Assembly: GCA_903856295.1 (NCBI GenBank)
Contig: CAIOBP010000074.1
Location: 1-43,120 of the forward strand
Direction of reading: 5' to 3'
DNA: 43,120 nt
Origin: an uncultured Rhodospirillales bacterium
Lineage (GTDB): Bacteria > Pseudomonadota > Alphaproteobacteria > Azospirillales > Azospirillaceae
A program made the translations under genes and the position numbers. The notes beneath the pieces are model-generated. The model ran no database searches. It had not been told where the DNA came from and was given only the letters and a program-made list of their open reading frames with translations. Below are positions 28,690 through 36,821 of this stretch, in pieces (positions within the stretch are counted from its first letter, which is position 1; each line of letters opens with the position of its first letter).

Positions 28690-31600
28690 ATGTTTGCTGC
28701 TGCGTGCAGGATTATCGCCCGGCTGGTGCTGGCGGCGGCACTTTGCGTGTGGGCGTTTGCTGTGTCGGCTGTCGAGCCGGCGCAGGGCGAGGCCGTGAGC
28801 GCGCAAGGCCCGGCGCCGACCCGTCTTGAGGCCGCCTATTCCGCGCGGGCCGGCTTGCCGGTGCGCCAGTTCGGCTATGAGCTGTTCGCCCATGGCACCG
28901 GGAGCGCCGCCGGAGCGGTTACCGGCGTGGCGCCGGTCGGCTCGGTTCAGGGCGATTATGTGCTCGGCGTCGGCGACGCGGTGCAGGTGGTGCTGCGCGC
29001 CAGCCTGAAGGGTGGCACCAAGCGCTATCTGATCGATAGCCAGGGCTTGCTGGTGGTCGATGATTTCGTGCCGGTCGCCGCCGCCGGCCGCACCCTGGCC
29101 GAGGTGCGCGACGAATTGCGGGCGGTGGCGCGCGCCGCCATTCCCGATGCCGACCTGTTTGTCTCGCTGGTCGAATTGCGGCGGATTCACGTGATGGTGG
29201 TGGGCGAGGTCGCCCGGCCCGGCCGCTACGCCGTGACCAGCCTCGGCACCGCCCTCGACGCGCTGTTTGCCGCCGGCGGCGTCACCTCCGCCGGCAGTCT
29301 GCGCCGGATCACCCTGACCCGCGCCGGCTCCACGGCGCCGAGCCGGATCGATCTCTACGATTTGCTTCAGGCCAGCGGCCGGGGCGGCGACTTGCGCCTG
29401 ACCGATGGTGACCGGTTGGTGGTGCCGCCGCTCGGGCCGACGCTGGCGGTGGCGGGCGCGGTGCGCCGGCCGGCGATTTATGAACTGGCGGCGGACAGCG
29501 CCGCGCTGTCGGTGGCCGAGGTCGTGCATCTGGCCGGCGGGCCGCTGCGCCCCGGCGCCGCGCGCGCCGTGCGGCTGATGGTCGGCTCCGATGGCATCGA
29601 GCGCCCTGTCGAGATCAACGACGTCGATCAGGATAAGCCATTATTGGGAAATGCCGATGTCATTCTCATGTCGCCGCGCCATGAGAATCGGGTCGGCGAG
29701 GTCCGGCTCGATGGCCATGTCCGGCGTCCCGGCCCGCGCGGTCTGGCCGAGCATCCGAGCGTCGGCCTGCTGGTCGGCCCCGACGATTTGCTGCCCCAGC
29801 CCTACTTGCATTTCGCGGTGCTGGAGACCGGGGCGACCGGCGGGCGGGCGCGGACGCTGGTGCCGGTCAGTCTCTCGGCGATCTTCGCGCTGCGCGAGGA
29901 CCGCGCCCTGCGTGACGGCGACACTCTGATCGCGCTGGGCGCGCGCGACGTCGAGTTTCTGACCTCGCGGCCGGTGCTGGAGTTGCTGCGCGGACGCCCG
30001 GCGCCCGAATGGGCCGAGTGCGCCGGCCTGACCGTGCTGGCCCGCGCGCTGTCCGCCGATCCCGAGGGACCGCTGGCCAAAGGGCCGCTGGCGCGGGCGG
30101 CCGGCAAACTCGTCCCGGCCGAGGGCGGCTGCCCGCCGGTGTTCGACCGTCACCCGGATCTGCTGCTGTTCGCGCTCACCCATGCGGCATTGCTGACCAA
30201 TGGCGTGCCCCGGCCGGGTTTCTATCCCGCCGCCGCCGCGGTGGCGGTCGGCGACCTGGCGCGCGAGGCCGGCGGCACCAGCGGCGCGGCGACCGGCGGC
30301 CGGGCCTCGGGCGGCGACATCGTCGAGCAGCTGGACCCCTGGGTCGAGCTGGCCGGGCCGTTCCGCCATCCCGGCGTCCGGCCGCTGAAGCGCGCCCGCA
30401 CGCTGCGCGCCGCGCTCGGCCGGGGCAAGGATTTGGACTCGGGAGTCTATCCGCTGTTCGGCGTCATCGACCGTTTCGACCGCATCGGGCTGGTGCGCAA
30501 ACTGATCCCCTTTTCGCCGCGGGAGGTGCTGGCCGGAAGCGTCGAGCACACTCTGGCCGATCATGACCGGGTGCTGCTGTTCCAGGCCGATGAGCTGCGG
30601 CGGTTGCTGGAGGCGGCCGAGGCGGCGGCGGCCGGCTATGCCCGGAGCAGCGGTCTCGGCAACGCGCCCGGACCGGGACGCGGCCGGAGCAATGCCGAGT
30701 CCCCGCCGGAAAAGCAGGCGGCGGCCGAGACACAGCCGCTGACCGATGATCCCGATGCGGCGCGGGTGCCGCCGCCGGGGCGGGCGGTGGCACCGGGGCC
30801 GGCGGGCGTCGAGGGCGATGGCGGCTTCGCTGCCCTGGAACGGGACGCCGCGCTGCTCACCCTGGTGCGCGATCATGTGGTGACGGTGCGGGGCGCGGTG
30901 CGCCGGCCCGGCGGCTATCCGGTGGCCGGACCGGGGGCGTTGGCGGCGGTGATCGAGGCGGCGGGCGGGCTGACCGCCACGGCGGACGCCGCCAGTGTCG
31001 AGGTCACGGTTGACACCGCGCACGGGCCGGGGCGGATGCTGGTCGACCTCAACGGCTATACCGGTGACGCCGCCCTGGTCGGGCCGGGCGACGCGGTGCG
31101 GGTCAATGGCCGCTTCGTGGCGCTGGAGAGCCGGGGCGTGGTCATTGAGGGCGAGGTGGTGCGGCCCGGAACCTATGATGTCCTTCATGGCGAAACGCTG
31201 TCCTCGCTGCTCGCCCGGGCCGGCGGCCTGACCCGCGACGCCTATCCGGCCGGAGCGGTGTTCACCCGCGAGACCGCGCGCCGCCGCGAGAGCGAGCAGT
31301 TCCAGCGTCAGGCCCAGGATATCGAGCGGGCGCTGACCTCCGAGCTGTTTCGGCCCAACACCACCACCCGTCCCGAGGGCGTGGCCATGGCGCGGCAACT
31401 GGCCAACGAGTTGCGCGGCCAGACCGGCATCGGCCGCATCACCGTCGAGGCCGACCCGAGGGCGCTCAAGGCCCGGCCGCAGGTCGATCTTCTGCTCGAG
31501 CCCGGCGACCGGCTGGTGATTCCCAAGCGTTCGCTGACGGTGGCGGTGTTCGGCGAGGTGCAGGCGCCGGCGACGCTGCAATACGACCCGGCCAAACGGG

Positions 31601-31866
31601 TGGAGGATTATGTTTTCCAGGCCGGCGGCGCCACCCGCAACGCCGACGAGGATCGCATCTTCGTGCTGCTGCCCAATGGCAGCTCGCGCCCGGCGGCGAC
31701 TTCGGCCTGGAGTTTCAGCGACATCACGATTCCGCCCGGTTCGACCATCGTGGTGCCGCGCGATCCCCATCCCTTCGACTTCCTCGAAGCGGCGCGCGAT
31801 ATCGGCGGCGCGCTCGGTCAGCTGGCCCTGACCGCCGCCTCGATTTCCGTGTTGCAGCGACAATGA
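28690..31866 (+). CDS. Very long polysaccharide-export protein with multiple SLBB domains
   Basis: A 1058-residue periplasmic/outer-membrane export protein of the Wza/OPX superfamily. A signal peptide (ARLVLAAALCVWAFAVSA) precedes a poly_export domain at about 87-160 (GDYVLGVGDAVQVVLRASLKG). SLBB-type domains follow, each opening with a G-x-V-x-x-P turn: VVGEVARPGRY (about 170), VAGAVRRPAIY (255), LDGHVRRPGPR (337), LAGPFRHPGVR (550), VRGAVRRPGGY (730), IEGEVVRPGTY (817) and VFGEVQAPATL (952). A Pro/Ala/Glu linker (about 650-720) splits the protein in two. E. coli Wza is about 380 residues, so this is nearly three times longer. No lipobox is evident. The start is ATG 28690; a TTG one codon earlier is less likely. 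Confidence 0.85.
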   Translation: MFAAACRIIARLVLAAALCVWAFAVSAVEPAQGEAVSAQGPAPTRLEAAYSARAGLPVRQFGYELFAHGTGSAAGAVTGVAPVGSVQGDYVLGVGDAVQVVLRASLKGGTKRYLIDSQGLLVVDDFVPVAAAGRTLAEVRDELRAVARAAIPDADLFVSLVELRRIHVMVVGEVARPGRYAVTSLGTALDALFAAGGVTSAGSLRRITLTRAGSTAPSRIDLYDLLQASGRGGDLRLTDGDRLVVPPLGPTLAVAGAVRRPAIYELAADSAALSVAEVVHLAGGPLRPGAARAVRLMVGSDGIERPVEINDVDQDKPLLGNADVILMSPRHENRVGEVRLDGHVRRPGPRGLAEHPSVGLLVGPDDLLPQPYLHFAVLETGATGGRARTLVPVSLSAIFALREDRALRDGDTLIALGARDVEFLTSRPVLELLRGRPAPEWAECAGLTVLARALSADPEGPLAKGPLARAAGKLVPAEGGCPPVFDRHPDLLLFALTHAALLTNGVPRPGFYPAAAAVAVGDLAREAGGTSGAATGGRASGGDIVEQLDPWVELAGPFRHPGVRPLKRARTLRAALGRGKDLDSGVYPLFGVIDRFDRIGLVRKLIPFSPREVLAGSVEHTLADHDRVLLFQADELRRLLEAAEAAAAGYARSSGLGNAPGPGRGRSNAESPPEKQAAAETQPLTDDPDAARVPPPGRAVAPGPAGVEGDGGFAALERDAALLTLVRDHVVTVRGAVRRPGGYPVAGPGALAAVIEAAGGLTATADAASVEVTVDTAHGPGRMLVDLNGYTGDAALVGPGDAVRVNGRFVALESRGVVIEGEVVRPGTYDVLHGETLSSLLARAGGLTRDAYPAGAVFTRETARRRESEQFQRQAQDIERALTSELFRPNTTTRPEGVAMARQLANELRGQTGIGRITVEADPRALKARPQVDLLLEPGDRLVIPKRSLTVAVFGEVQAPATLQYDPAKRVEDYVFQAGGATRNADEDRIFVLLPNGSSRPAATSAWSFSDITIPPGSTIVVPRDPHPFDFLEAARDIGGALGQLALTAASISVLQRQ

Positions 31867-31884
31867 GAGCGGAGTGCCCCCGAC

Positions 31885-32715
31885 ATGATCCATAAGGGTA
31901 TCGGCGCGGCGCGCGATGCGGTGGAGCCGGCGCTGTTTTCGGTGGTCACGGTGGTGCGCGACGATCTCGCCGGGCTGGTGCGCACCCATGCCAGTCTCGA
32001 GGCGCAGCAGTGTCGGGACTTCGAGTGGATCGTGGTCGATGGCGATTCGCGCGACGGCAGCCGCGACTGGCTGGAGGCGAACCGGTCCCGGATCGGCTGG
32101 TGGCGCTCGGCCCCCGATGGCGGGATTTACGACGCCATGAATATCGGGCTCGGCGTGGCCTCGGGCCGCTATGTGCTGTTTCTCAACGCCGGGGATGCTC
32201 TGGCCGAGGCGGGGACCCTGGCTGCCGTGGCCACCGCCCTGGCCGGGGCGGGCTGGCCCGATTTCTGTTATGGCGACGCCTTCGAAACCGGCCCCGGCGG
32301 CCGGCTGCTGCTCAAGCCGGCCCGCTCCCATCGCCGGGTTTGGTACGGCATGTTCACCCATCATCAGGCGATGTTCTGCCGGCGGGCGATCCTCGCCGGA
32401 CTGGCCTTCAATCCGGCTTACCCGGTCGGGGCCGACTATGCCTTCACCATCGAGGTGCTGGGCCGGGCGCGCAGCCATCACCGTGTGTCGCGGCCGGTTT
32501 GCATCTTTGCCCCCGGTGGTTGTTCTCAGCGCATGGCCTCGTCAGGGCGCCGGGATCAGTCGCTGATTCGGAAAAGTCTGCTGAAACACAGCATTGTCCG
32601 TCGATGGCTGATTCACGCCTTGCAACTTATAGTTTATAATTCCCGCAAATACCTGCCGCATGTGTTTTGCGCGCTGCGTTACAGAGATAGATTTGACATG
32701 GTTAATCCAGAATAG
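31885..32715 (+). CDS. Family 2 glycosyltransferase
   Basis: A 276-residue GT-A enzyme likely to add a sugar to a lipid-linked polysaccharide precursor at the cytoplasmic face. It opens with FSVVTVVRDDLAGLVRTHAS and EWIVVDGDSRDGS (nucleotide site), then GGIYDAMNIGLGVASGRYVLFLNAGD, where NAGD replaces the usual DxD, as in some WcaA-like enzymes. GADYAFTIEVL carries the probable acceptor-site acid. It starts 18 bp after the SLBB export gene and is surely cotranscribed with it. Donor and acceptor sugars cannot be told. Confidence 0.87.
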   Translation: MIHKGIGAARDAVEPALFSVVTVVRDDLAGLVRTHASLEAQQCRDFEWIVVDGDSRDGSRDWLEANRSRIGWWRSAPDGGIYDAMNIGLGVASGRYVLFLNAGDALAEAGTLAAVATALAGAGWPDFCYGDAFETGPGGRLLLKPARSHRRVWYGMFTHHQAMFCRRAILAGLAFNPAYPVGADYAFTIEVLGRARSHHRVSRPVCIFAPGGCSQRMASSGRRDQSLIRKSLLKHSIVRRWLIHALQLIVYNSRKYLPHVFCALRYRDRFDMVNPE

Positions 32716-32718
32716 TGT

Positions 32719-32737
32719 GCGGCGCAACAAGCGCCGC
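32719..32737. terminator. Short GC hairpin after the glycosyltransferase
   Basis: GCGGCGC (32719-32725) and GCGCCGC (32731-32737) form a 7-bp stem with an AACAA loop, starting 4 nt after the stop. An A-run, not a T-run, follows on the plus strand, so intrinsic termination rightward is not well supported. Confidence 0.35.
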
Positions 32738-32747
32738 GCGAAAAAAG

Positions 32748-32772
32748 TGTAATCAGAGGATTGTAATCTGAG
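32748..32772 (+). promoter_or_regulatory. Tandem 11-bp direct repeats upstream of the XRE regulator gene
   Basis: TGTAATCAGAG (32748-32758) and TGTAATCTGAG (32762-32772) differ at one base and repeat at a 14-bp period. They lie 58-82 bp before the regulator ATG in AT-richer DNA than the surroundings. A regulator binding site, perhaps for autoregulation, is the obvious guess. Confidence 0.45.
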
Positions 32773-32829
32773 CGTGCTCGGAGTAAGAACTGCTGACTGA
32801 CGAGGACAGTGAGCAGTTGGAGCCCGAAG

Positions 32830-33309
32830 ATGCAAACGATTGACTCGAAGCTTGCTCCCGCGAGTACGATTACCCGCCGGGGCGAAGGGCCGAATCCGAT
32901 CGACATTCACGTCGGCAACCGGTTGAGACAATGCCGGACCCTGCTGGGTATCAGCCAGGAAAAGCTGGGTGAGGCGATCGGCATCACATTTCAGCAATTG
33001 CAGAAATACGAGCGGGGCTCGAACCGCATCAGCGCCAGCCGCCTTTTCAATCTTTCTCAGGTGCTTGGCGTGCCGGTGAGCTTCTTTTTCGACGATATGC
33101 CGCCGACCTTGCAGAGCGAACCGCCGCTCGAATCGGCCGAGGAGGTCAGCGAGCCCGAAGGATTCGCACCCCGGGCCCGGCGTGAGACCCTCGAACTGGT
33201 GCGGGCCTATTACCGGATCGGCGAGTCGCCGGTGCGGCGCCGGGCCTTCGACCTGATCCGGGCGCTGGGCGGCGAGGTGGCGGTGCTCGAGGGCGCGGTT
33301 GCCGATTAG
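32830..33309 (+). CDS. XRE-family transcriptional regulator
   Basis: A 159-residue protein with a Cro/C1-type helix-turn-helix at about residues 26-90: IHVGNRLRQCRTLLGISQEKLGEAIG, then FQQLQKYERGSNRISASRL and VPVSFFFDDMP. A flexible acidic linker leads to a helical C-terminus (RRETLELVRAYYRIGES). Stand-alone regulators of this form are common in alphaproteobacteria. The ATG at 32830 has GGAG 7 nt upstream; an upstream GTG (32809) has a Shine-Dalgarno too close to work well. Placed between polysaccharide genes, it is a fair candidate to control them. Its last 4 bp overlap the convergent glycosyltransferase gene. Confidence 0.85.
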   Translation: MQTIDSKLAPASTITRRGEGPNPIDIHVGNRLRQCRTLLGISQEKLGEAIGITFQQLQKYERGSNRISASRLFNLSQVLGVPVSFFFDDMPPTLQSEPPLESAEEVSEPEGFAPRARRETLELVRAYYRIGESPVRRRAFDLIRALGGEVAVLEGAVAD

Positions 33310-34178
33310 AGCCGGGGGCCGTGGCGGGGGCTGCGCTCGACGCCTCCGCGGCCGGCCTTCAGTTCACCGAGCTTGAGCCCGATCTGCCAGTAGTAGAAGG
33401 CGCGGGCCAGCGCGTAGTGAAACCCGGCGCGACCATCGAGCACGCCGAGTCGCCATAGGTAGCTGTGGAGAAAGACGAGCAGCGGGCGGGCCGGCGCCCG
33501 GTCGAGCAGCCGTTTCAGCAGGCGGCGCCAGCGGCTTTCGCCCTCGGCCATGGCCTGCAACCGGCCGTCGTTGCGCAGTGTCGCCTCCCAGTCGGAGTAG
33601 CGGTTGTGCCGCTCCAGCCACGCGAACAGGGGTTTGGCATCCTCGTGGAGCAGCGGCGCCTGGAGCCGGCCGGCGCTGCCCCCGAGTCGCGGCTGATAGT
33701 GGCCTTCGACTTCCCACATCGCGGCGACGTCGAGATCGGGGCAGTCCGGATAGCGGGCGTGGCGGCGGTCGAGCAGGGCGAGTTTGTGGTTGCGGGCGCC
33801 GAAGCGCAACCTGCGGCCGATAAACCTCATGCGCCCGGAGATATAATAACCGGCGTGGCGCGGCCCCGCCGTCATCAGAGCGGCGATTTCCGCTGTCAGC
33901 TCCGGAGTCATCCGTTCGTCGGCGTCGAGGTACAGCACCCAGTCGTGGGCGAGGGTCAGGGTGTCGAGGCACCATTGCTTCTTTTTGGGATAGCGGCCGT
34001 TCCAGTGGAACGGCACCACCCGCGCCCCGGCGGCGGCGGCCAGTTCGGCGGTGCCGTCGCCGCTCGCCGAATCGACCACTACCCGCTCGGCAAAATCCCG
34101 CACCGAGTCGAGGCAGGCGACGATATTGGCCGCCTCGTCGCGGGTCATCACGATCACCGAAACCGGAATCCGCTCCAT
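33306..34178 (-). CDS. Family 2 glycosyltransferase, WaaE/KdtX-like
   Basis: A 290-residue enzyme. The start RIPVSVIVMTRDEAANIVACL and the VVVDSASGDGTAELAAAAGA segment form the nucleotide-sugar site; DWVLYLDADERMTPEL carries the DxD metal motif. The segment YPKKKQWCLDTL and the C-terminal RPLLVFLHSYLWRLGVLDG region resemble lipopolysaccharide-core beta-1,4-glucosyltransferases of the WaaE group. It probably decorates LPS or exopolysaccharide; the true substrate is not shown. It lies downstream of the Wzz-like gene, with repeat copy E between them, and converges on the XRE gene with a 4-bp overlap. Confidence 0.87.
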   Translation of the reverse strand: MERIPVSVIVMTRDEAANIVACLDSVRDFAERVVVDSASGDGTAELAAAAGARVVPFHWNGRYPKKKQWCLDTLTLAHDWVLYLDADERMTPELTAEIAALMTAGPRHAGYYISGRMRFIGRRLRFGARNHKLALLDRRHARYPDCPDLDVAAMWEVEGHYQPRLGGSAGRLQAPLLHEDAKPLFAWLERHNRYSDWEATLRNDGRLQAMAEGESRWRRLLKRLLDRAPARPLLVFLHSYLWRLGVLDGRAGFHYALARAFYYWQIGLKLGELKAGRGGVERSPRHGPRL

Positions 34179-34192
34179 CGGGCCTCGTTCAG

Positions 34193-34305
34193 GTTTCCAA
34201 AGGCCGCCGGCCTGTGGCGGGTCCAGGGCGGAGCCCTGGCCTTGTCTCCGACGGCCAAGGGGCCTTGCCCCTGGACCCCACTGGGGCCGGCGGCCCCAGG
34301 CCCCG
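34193..34305 (+). repeat. Modular palindromic repeat, copy E
   Basis: Starts GTTTCCAAAGGCCGCCGGCC and carries the same four modules as copy D (the third reads AAGGGGCCTTGCCCCTGGAC), ending CCCCAGGCCCC. It occupies almost all of the gap between two leftward genes (Wzz-like, then glycosyltransferase), so transcription of the second must pass several potential stems. Confidence 0.8.
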
Positions 34306-34308
34306 GTG

Positions 34309-35301
34309 TTAGTCTACCGTCGCTTCGGCCATGCGGCGGCGGAAGGCGCGGCGCACCGGCTCTTGCCAGGCGCGGCGGGCGAAGACCAGGAACAGTCCCA
34401 GCCCGGCGCCGACGGCGGCGGCCAGGGGCAGGATGATCAGCGGATTCGGCCAGTCGGGCTGGTTTGAGGCGCTGGGCGGCTCGATCGGGTCGGCGGCGAA
34501 GGGCAGATCGACTCCGATCATCATGGCCACCCGCTCCTGGTCGCCGAGCAGTTCGACCAGGGCCTTGCGCGAGTCGGCGGTTTGGGCGGCGGCGAGGCCG
34601 GCCCGGATGTAACCGATTTCGGCATTGGCCCGGCGGGCGGCTTCGGTGCGCAAATGGGCGTCGGCGGCGGCGGTCAGCCGGTGCAGCAGGGTCACCGCGA
34701 ACGCGCGGTCGGAGTCGCGGTAGCTGATGCGCCGCATCGGAGTGGTGCCAAGTGACTGCACGACGATGGCGCGGCGCAGATGGTGCGACACGATGTCGAC
34801 GTCGGGGGCGCTCCAGTCCTCCCGTCCGGCCAGCCCCAGAATCAGGCCGCGCAGCCAGCCGCTCAGGCCGCCGGGGGTGTGCCAGCGGCCGGTTGCCGGG
34901 TCCCAGCGCTCGGGGAAGAGGTGGGCCAGCAGGCCGGGCTCGGTCATCAGCCGGGCGGCCACGGTGGGCGAACTCAGCAGCTCGACGAATCGGGCGAAGT
35001 CGGAGAGCATTTCGTCGCCGTTGCCGAACTCCAGCATGCTCATGGGCATGTCGGCGCGCATGGCCACCGGCGTCCGCGCGCCCATCGCCGAGGCGCCGGT
35101 GCGGGCGATCGGCCCCACCACCATCGAGGCGGTATGCTCGGGAGGCAGCCCGCGCAGCGCGAAAGCGGCGAGCAGCAGGGATCCCAGGGCGCAAACCGCC
35201 ACCAGCCGCCATCCCGAGGTCAGGGAAAGCGCCAAAGGACGCCAGGGCGAGGCGCGCTCCCGGAGCAGGGACAGGTGAAAGGCGGCGGTCAGCTCGGTCA
35301 T
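34309..35301 (-). CDS. Wzz-like polysaccharide chain-length / co-polymerase protein
   Basis: A 330-residue inner-membrane protein with the PCP layout: a membrane helix near the N-terminus (about residues 33-52, LVAVCALGSLLLAAFALRGL), a large periplasmic region, and a second helix near the C-terminus (PLIILPLAAAVGAGLGLFLV) followed by a short basic tail. No cytoplasmic tyrosine-kinase domain is attached and none is seen nearby, so it is of the Wzz (PCP-1) kind and not Wzc. The periplasmic part is divergent, so the call rests on topology and on polysaccharide neighbours. The start at 35301 was chosen because the region upstream (to 35520) does not look like coding sequence. Confidence 0.65.
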   Translation of the reverse strand: MTELTAAFHLSLLRERASPWRPLALSLTSGWRLVAVCALGSLLLAAFALRGLPPEHTASMVVGPIARTGASAMGARTPVAMRADMPMSMLEFGNGDEMLSDFARFVELLSSPTVAARLMTEPGLLAHLFPERWDPATGRWHTPGGLSGWLRGLILGLAGREDWSAPDVDIVSHHLRRAIVVQSLGTTPMRRISYRDSDRAFAVTLLHRLTAAADAHLRTEAARRANAEIGYIRAGLAAAQTADSRKALVELLGDQERVAMMIGVDLPFAADPIEPPSASNQPDWPNPLIILPLAAAVGAGLGLFLVFARRAWQEPVRRAFRRRMAEATVD

Positions 35302-35460
35302 CGTCGGTGGACCCCTCGGCTCGGACCGTTGGCATGCGGGATGCGCATGCAAGAGTATGCCATCGTCCGTCTCCCGGCGCAAACCGGGGCTATGCTGCGC
35401 CGCAGTCGCGACCGCGTCGATCAATCCGCTTGATCGGAGCTCAACAAGGCCTTCAGGCCC

Positions 35461-35489
35461 TTGAGGGTTTCGGAAAAGCCGTGTAACTT
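35461..35489 (+). promoter_or_regulatory. Candidate promoter for the three-gene small-protein cluster
   Basis: TTGAGG (35461-35466) and TAACTT (35484-35489) with 17-bp spacing, 88 bp before the first ATG. The match is moderate. It lies in the 276-bp divergent gap with the Wzz-like gene, in which I see no other element. Confidence 0.3.
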
Positions 35490-35577
35490 CCACCACTGAA
35501 ACGGTCATGGTGCGTCGCACCAGCGGCCCCGGCGCTGTGTGGCGCGGTGCCGTTCGTCTGGCCCCGGGGGAAAAGCC

Positions 35578-35904
35578 ATGCGCAACCTCGTTTTTGCCGC
35601 CTTGATCGCCGTGATCGGCCTGGGGCCGGTGTCGGGTAATGCCCAGACGACCCCGTCGGCGAAGCCGTCCGCCCCGGCCGCCGCCGCGAGCACCGCCGTG
35701 TCCGCCGCCTACACCGACGATACCAGCCGCGTGCTGGCCATCGGACTCGGCGCGATCTCCGGCATGGTCACGCTGACCGTGATCAGCGGCAACCTGATCA
35801 CCAGGACGGCGCTGGCCAGTCTCGGGCAGGGGGCGCTGGTGTTCATCGGCACCGCGCTGGGCGGGCTGGCGGGCAACTGGTTCTACAATCGCGAGCGTTC
35901 GTGA
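35578..35904 (+). CDS. Small exported membrane protein, first of three tandem paralogues
   Basis: A 108-residue protein. A signal peptide (MRNLVFAALIAVIGLGPVSG, cleavage near GNAQT) is followed by an Ala/Pro-rich spacer and two hydrophobic segments: RVLAIGLGAISGMVTLTVIS and ALVFIGTALGGLAGNWFYN. The second has a GxxxG-rich glycine-zipper face. The motif GLGAI-x-G and an aromatic end (NWFYN) recur in the next two genes, which points to duplication. No family is recognised. It is the first gene of the cluster and divergent from the Wzz-like gene, hence perhaps linked to polysaccharide export, but only by position. Confidence 0.75.
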   Translation: MRNLVFAALIAVIGLGPVSGNAQTTPSAKPSAPAAAASTAVSAAYTDDTSRVLAIGLGAISGMVTLTVISGNLITRTALASLGQGALVFIGTALGGLAGNWFYNRERS

Positions 35905-35973
35905 GCGGAAAGACAGTGTGAACGGAGCCCGAGGCTTCGAGACTAAATCCGGCGTGTTATGGAGCTTGTGACC

Positions 35974-36309
35974 ATGCGAAAACTGGTGATGGCCGCCCTG
36001 GTTGCCTTGATCGGCGTTATGCCACTGGCCGCCGCTCCGGCTCTGGCCCAGACGGAGACCGCGACTCAGACCGCTCCCCAGGTCCGCACCACCGGGCCGC
36101 TGTACCCGATTTTCCTCGGGCTGGGGGCGATCTCCGGAGTCGCCGTCTATAATATGGCGAGTTTTGGCGTGGCGGGGGTGCCGTTCCTGGCCCCGGCGGC
36201 CACCACCGGCCTGATGGTCACCAACGCCGCCATTTCTCGGAATCGCCTTTATACCGTGGTGAGCGCCGTGGTCGGCGCCTGGGTGCTGAACTGGCTGTAC
36301 GGAAACTGA
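35974..36309 (+). CDS. Small exported membrane protein, second of three tandem paralogues
   Basis: A 111-residue protein. The signal peptide is MRKLVMAALVALIGVMPLAA with cleavage near ALAQT. The mature part starts with a Thr-rich spacer, then PIFLGLGAISGVAVYNMASF, a central hydrophobic stretch (VPFLAPAATTGLMVTNAAIS) and a last helix VVSAVVGAWVLNWLYGN. It keeps the GLGAISG motif and aromatic terminus of its neighbour. GGAG lies about 9 nt before the ATG; an ATG five codons upstream is possible but would spoil the signal sequence. It lies 69 bp after the first gene. Confidence 0.75.
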   Translation: MRKLVMAALVALIGVMPLAAAPALAQTETATQTAPQVRTTGPLYPIFLGLGAISGVAVYNMASFGVAGVPFLAPAATTGLMVTNAAISRNRLYTVVSAVVGAWVLNWLYGN

Positions 36310-36353
36310 AGCGGGCGAATCGGGCGTTGCGTCGCGGGCGTTGGGGAGGGGGC

Positions 36354-36821
36354 ATGCGCAGGCTGGTGGTGTATCTCATGGTCGGACTGCTCGCGCTGGC
36401 GACGGCGATGCCGTCGCGATTCGCCTGCGCCCAGGAGCCGTGGCAGGAACCGCCTCCGGTCAAAATCCAGACCCGCGACATCACGCCCTATATGGTCGGG
36501 CTCGGCGCGATCATGGGCATGATCGCCTTCAACATCGCGGCGCCGACGGTTTCGGCTTGGTATGGTTCGGCGCTGGTCTCGGCGAAAAACATCCGTTCGG
36601 TGCTGTGGGCGACCGGGCAGGTCGCGGCGGGTGTGCCGGCCGCCACCGCCGGCGCCGCCGCGCGTCCGGCCGCCGCTGCTGCGGGGCCGGTGGTGCAGCC
36701 TTTGACTCAGACCATGATGGCCCAGGCCCAGATCATGGGCACCGCCGCCGCCGCGGCCGGCGCCATCGTGGTCAACGCCTTCTACAAGACGGTCAACTGG
36801 GTAACCGGGGCGGCGCCCTGA
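36354..36821 (+). CDS. Small exported membrane protein, third of three tandem paralogues
   Basis: A 155-residue protein, longer than its two neighbours. After the signal peptide (VVYLMVGLLALATAMPSRFA, cleavage near ACAQE) comes PYMVGLGAIMGMIAFNIAAP, the shared motif with Met in place of Ser. An Ala/Pro-rich insert (about residues 90-125) precedes a last segment TAAAAAGAIVVNAFYKTVNW that matches the aromatic end of the others. The ATG has a strong GGGGAGGGGG upstream. It starts 44 bp after the second gene, completing an apparent three-gene operon. Confidence 0.75.
   Translation: MRRLVVYLMVGLLALATAMPSRFACAQEPWQEPPPVKIQTRDITPYMVGLGAIMGMIAFNIAAPTVSAWYGSALVSAKNIRSVLWATGQVAAGVPAATAGAAARPAAAAAGPVVQPLTQTMMAQAQIMGTAAAAAGAIVVNAFYKTVNWVTGAAP

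Follow-up and report, generated by a model that had tools for sequence, protein, structure and literature searches.

An undescribed family of small glycine-rich proteins, usually encoded in ordered sets of three, in an uncultured genus of Azospirillaceae

Introduction

The window analysed here, a stretch of 43,120 nucleotides from an uncultured Rhodospirillales bacterium of the Azospirillaceae (contig CAIOBP010000074.1, positions 1 to 43,120), contains three consecutive small genes, P1-P3, beside a set of polysaccharide-type genes. The locus raises two questions: what the three proteins are to one another, and whether they work with the genes at their side. A sequence-only reading recognised no family in them. 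It proposed that tandem duplication had produced subunits of a glycine-zipper oligomer in the inner membrane, which perhaps assists the export or anchoring of a polysaccharide. Here, we compare the trio with its relatives in other genomes. The features of the window on which the analysis rests are as follows.

34309-35301, minus strand: Wzz-like gene, divergent from the P1-P3 trio
35460..35485, plus strand: promoter-like element, CTTGAGGGTTTCGGAAAAGCCGTGTA, upstream of the trio and aligned in all five congeneric genomes
35509..35521, plus strand: 13-bp dyad, GGTGCGTCGCACC, a possible operator kept in the five genomes
35578..35904, plus strand: P1 (A1 subunit), open reading frame of 108 aa; the A1 type forms one clade (support 99/94)
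35974..36309, plus strand: P2 (A2 subunit), open reading frame of 111 aa; B1 and B3 of a second triplet are closest
36354..36821, plus strand: P3 (A3 subunit), open reading frame of 155 aa; Gly-rich first segment as in P1 and P2

Results

P1-P3 are homologous genes under constraint

The three open reading frames lie on one strand and diverge from the Wzz-like gene, with the lengths and the start and stop positions that the sequence-only reading had given. The Pfam Wzz match of the latter gene is weak (E=0.0033) and under the curated cut-off. Each of the three proteins starts with a signal-peptide-like N-terminus whose last residues are A-Q, followed by a Pro/Ala/Thr spacer and hydrophobic segments rich in Gly, as had been described. 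The first segment carries the motif GLGAISG in P1 and P2 and GLGAIMG in P3, and the C-terminal ends are GNWFYN, NWLYGN and NAFYKTVNW, respectively. In P3, an Ala/Pro-rich linker stands between the first Gly-rich segment and the last helix. The N-terminus of most family members follows the pattern MRRLL..ALIALIG..P...AQ, which has the sequence and hydropathy of a Sec/SPase I-like signal; calls of signal peptides and membrane helices drew on hydropathy and AlphaFold2 helices. Against the orthologues at the same position in the congener G003, dN/dS is 0.27 for P1, 0.13 for P2 and 0.17 for P3. P1-P3 are real, homologous genes under constraint.

The homology extends beyond the signal peptides. In whole-genome searches, a mixed family profile that includes P1- and P2-type rows matched P1, itself one of its sequences, with E=4.5e-20, and P3, which is absent from this profile, with E=1.2e-8. 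P1 and P3 each match P2-type profiles as well. HHalign was run on mature regions only, with the signal peptides cut off, to exclude similarity of the signal peptides themselves. The probability was 94.6% between the A1 and A2 types, 99.4% for A2-B3, 99.3% for A2-B1 and 97.8% for B1-B2. The A3 type (that of P3) aligns over the first hydrophobic segment only, with 44% for B3 and 66-95% for the remaining four subfamilies. The proposed tandem duplication of one ancestral gene is thus well supported by profile and HHalign homology, with weaker support in the C-terminal half of P3.

The family also stays unrecognised in the libraries. Profile searches of P1-P3 in Pfam, NCBIfam and PHROGs gave no significant match, with no Pfam match even at E<=1, and a search of PDB sequences with the family gave none either. 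A Foldseek search of the P2 model against the PDB had no match with E under 4.9, so no similar solved structure was found, and we found no description of the family in the literature. This is an undescribed family whose members usually come in ordered threes, in some cases fused to give one or two proteins.

Predicted structure

The AlphaFold2 model of P2, built on 26 sequences, has a signal helix at residues 2-19 and two further helices at 44-68 and 84-110 (mean pLDDT 70, pTM 0.48). The low-confidence model of P3 (pLDDT 50) has helices at 44-90 and 119-151. Both are single-chain models on shallow alignments, moderate (pLDDT 70) or poor (50) in quality, and they support a predicted helical hairpin at no finer detail. 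The helices are moderately hydrophobic (19-residue Kyte-Doolittle values of about 1.4-2.1), which leaves room for a surface or periplasmic aggregate.

Three triplets in one genus

Across the uncultured Azospirillaceae genus, we notice three tandem triplets of the family: triplet A (P1-P3), triplet B at heparinase-purH and triplet C between rplI and dnaB. Triplet A is present in all five congeneric genomes, with A3 of G002 cut by a contig end. Triplet B likewise occurs in five of five, always in the order B1-B2-B3; in the source genome, contig C155 carries it, with a divergent kinase-like gene on one side and heparinase-purH on the other. Triplet C, on contig C197 of the source genome, is more divergent. 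It is complete in four of the five (G000, G001, G002 and G003) and broken by a contig end in G004.

The complete C triplets lie at L068 2540-4093, L107 4369-6133, L110 4715-6424 and L114 4138-5907 and share the motif TAGVVGxVVVADxLTxGALTGPLL, while G004 (L115) has one member at the contig end. Beside triplet B, a divergent block (L035 5695-8889 and its equivalents in L040-L043) encodes a 686-aa protein, whose protein-kinase-like match is weak and which has a hydrophobic segment at its C-terminus, together with two small proteins of unknown function. In G001 and G002, single A1-like genes adjoin a conserved gene of 348 aa (L106 4666-6182; L108 3293-4828).

Ordered arrays and natural fusions

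The order of the subunits is also kept outside the triplets of the genus. G011 has a five-gene tandem array, A1-B1-B2-B3-A3, and G013 a four-gene array, B1-B2-B3-A3. In three Azospirillaceae genomes of other genera (G026, G074 and G080), B1 stands alone and B2 and B3 are fused, giving two genes. G261, which belongs to another family of the class, encodes the whole set in one reading frame, as a B1-B2-B3 polypeptide. In a maximum-likelihood tree of 47 domains, the fused domains cluster with the subunit that corresponds to them in position, and A1 and A2 each form a single clade. The position labels change 9 times on this tree against 31.4 times in shuffles, with the qualification that the alignment has few columns and long branches meet. 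The family therefore consists of tandem homologous subunits with a conserved order.

In its own taxonomic family, the family profile matched 12 of the 82 genomes. All five genomes of the genus are among these, with 8-10 matches each. Carriers outside the taxonomic family were few. The class sample added 2 other genomes of 385, and in the phylum sample (n=399) one weak match was found besides the own genome. Singletons occur in several genomes. The neighbours of these singletons, as well as an 11-gene cluster in G026/G019, were examined and gave no interpretable function. Family members recur near a cluster that encodes an ABC-MlaE fusion, a TPR protein, proteins resembling bestrophins and a conserved, uncharacterised protein of 140-158 aa (L047 334-15272; L048; L076 7614-11423; L070 1-7139).

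One further set lies on contig CAIRSR010000221.1, which is binned to the Thiotrichales. Here, B1-B2-B3 stand in order (L083 6001-7132) among unrelated genes, adjoining a probable aspS and a DedA-like gene, and each is 51-66% identical to proteins of the genus. The GC content of the triplet and both flanks is 0.56-0.59, against 0.63-0.69 at the loci compared from the genus and from G011 and G013. These data suggest a transfer between classes, with misbinning still possible despite the different GC content. Neither IMG/VR viral contigs nor plasmids contained a relative, and a phage or plasmid origin of the family accordingly finds no support.

A conserved element upstream of triplet A

The region upstream of A1 has the same layout in the five congeneric genomes: CTTGAGG-N-TT...AAGCCGTGTA, then a GGYGC-NNN-GCRCC dyad. 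With up to three mismatches allowed, the pattern of the 26-bp element was found once per genome in all five, always just upstream of A1 and with no mismatch; the reversed pattern, used as a control, was absent from four genomes and occurred twice in the fifth. The element is a putative promoter. Its presence does not depend on whether the HTH gene or the Wzz-like gene lies upstream, and the trio is therefore probably transcribed from a start of its own.

Across the five genomes, the 13-bp dyad shows symmetric T-A to C-G changes. The P1 leader RNA in the window folds no better than shuffles, which gives no support to an RNA-hairpin role. For this reason the dyad fits a possible DNA operator better than an RNA hairpin. 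The A trio is best read as a derived paralogue that carries a conserved promoter-like element of its own.

The trio and the polysaccharide module

In the window and in G003, the trio adjoins an SLBB - GT2 - HTH - GT2 - Wzz-like module. The module spans 28690-35301 of the window and is syntenic in G011 (L117 4594-11550); its SLBB protein has 1059 aa with five SLBB stretches, and the HTH gene inside it is of the Cro/C1 type. In G001 and G002, the trio directly follows the HTH gene. Whole-genome searches found neither the SLBB nor the Wzz-like gene in G001 (98% complete), G002 (91%) or G004 (99%), and all three genomes carry the trio. In G011, the syntenic SLBB, GT2, HTH, GT2 and Wzz-like genes have no family member beside them. 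Taken together, the trio without the module and the module without an adjacent trio demonstrate that the association is dissociable in both directions.

Regular co-occurrence of the trio with the SLBB and Wzz-like genes was looked for across genomes and was not found. The earlier proposal that the trio aids polysaccharide export or anchoring finds no support, three of the five trio-bearing congeners being without these genes. The sequence-only reading had itself named regular presence of the trio without a polysaccharide locus as a ground for refuting it, and G001, G002 and G004 answer to this.

Discussion

Proposed assembly

We lean towards the reading that P1-P3 are copy A of an undescribed, self-contained envelope module, in which small helical-hairpin subunits form a hetero-oligomer. 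The dN/dS values, ranging from 0.10 to 0.36, count in its favour. Each subunit would carry a cleavable Sec-type signal peptide, followed by a flexible Pro/Ala/Thr spacer. The mature part would be a hairpin of two Gly-rich hydrophobic helices, the first with G-x-G-A-x-x-G and the second with one conserved Gly and a terminal aromatic residue. Most likely, the different subunits from adjacent genes would pack against one another by their Gly-rich faces, forming a single hetero-oligomer of the cell envelope that would probably sit in the inner membrane. The steps that we infer are signal-peptide cleavage, membrane insertion and hetero-oligomerisation.

We prefer a hetero-oligomer because fixed order, position-specific lineages and natural fusions are the usual signature of the subunits of one assembly. 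The Gly-packed oligomer of the sequence-only reading gains plausibility, as a hetero-oligomer, from the fixed gene order and the fusions. The fusions concern the B set, and a three-part assembly of the A set itself would follow by analogy. On a wider and more tentative view, the family may be a horizontally mobile, self-contained three-subunit membrane complex, made of three diverged hairpin copies, triplicated in one genus, fused to one polypeptide elsewhere and possibly serving as a channel or membrane-organising scaffold. That the hetero-oligomer acts as a small scaffold or channel is a rather doubtful suggestion.

Comparison with known systems

Glycine zipper 2TM domain proteins (PF05433, Rick_17kDa_Anti) are, like P1-P3, small and exported, with Gly-rich paired helices. 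However, a conserved lipobox cysteine is missing from the P1-P3 family, which also has one G-x-G-A-x-x-G motif in place of long GxxxG repeats. The PF05433 profile gave no significant match against 26 family members (best E 0.38, 2 of 26 members). Wzz (polysaccharide co-polymerase) and SLBB export modules are physical neighbours of the trio in two genomes, but they have no sequence relation to it and are dissociated from it in other genomes. The contact-dependent Cdz bacteriocins of Caulobacter rely on type I secretion and an immunity protein, and Cdz-like systems are reported to contain one to three small glycine-zipper toxins (PMC5380434). Cdz resembles the P1-P3 family in that small Gly-rich proteins occur as paralogous sets in an alphaproteobacterium. 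The P1-P3 family differs from Cdz in its Sec-type signal, in the lack of secretion and immunity genes beside the set and in its conserved chromosomal positions.

Alternative readings

The strongest alternative is that the members are independent, homo-oligomeric envelope stress or structural proteins, which stand in tandem only by duplication and share no complex. Singleton members in several genomes and the lineage-specific expansion to 8-10 profile matches per genome speak for this reading. We regard it as unlikely, given that the B1-B2-B3 order is fixed across genera, the clades are position-specific, the fusions are in order and the whole set is present on the Thiotrichales contig. That same contig, carrying one ordered set in a bin assigned to the gammaproteobacteria, would suit surface-displayed or secreted multi-component glycine-zipper bacteriocins resembling CdzC/CdzD, as would the occurrence of small Gly-rich paralogues in sets, comparable to the one to three toxins reported for Cdz-like systems (PMC5380434). 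By sequence and hydropathy, however, the signal peptides are Sec-type and not RTX-like secretion signals. Gene maps and neighbour family searches revealed no type I secretion genes adjacent to triplet A or B, and no small immunity gene is evident beside either. The sets also occupy the same sites in each of the five congeners and have low dN/dS. Horizontal acquisition is, in contrast, described as frequent for Cdz loci, and we consider a bacteriocin role improbable.

Least probable, and by our estimate very remote, is an accessory of the adjacent SLBB/Wzz/glycosyltransferase module that helps polymer export or anchoring. It draws on G000 and G003, where trio and module are neighbours and the Wzz-like gene is transcribed divergently from the trio, and on the heparinase-like gene beside triplet B in all five congeners. 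Against it, G001, G002 and G004 keep the trio with the SLBB and Wzz-like genes missing genome-wide, G011 has the module with no trio alongside, and triplets B and C as well as the Thiotrichales-contig triplet lie away from such modules.

Implications

For P1-P3, the neighbouring polysaccharide locus says little about function. The envelope-module reading that we prefer makes the family a tractable case of how one small hairpin becomes an ordered hetero-set, duplicated again at three loci in one genus, with an intact set also on a contig binned in another class. Since the natural fusions map domain to subunit, the assembly is directly testable.
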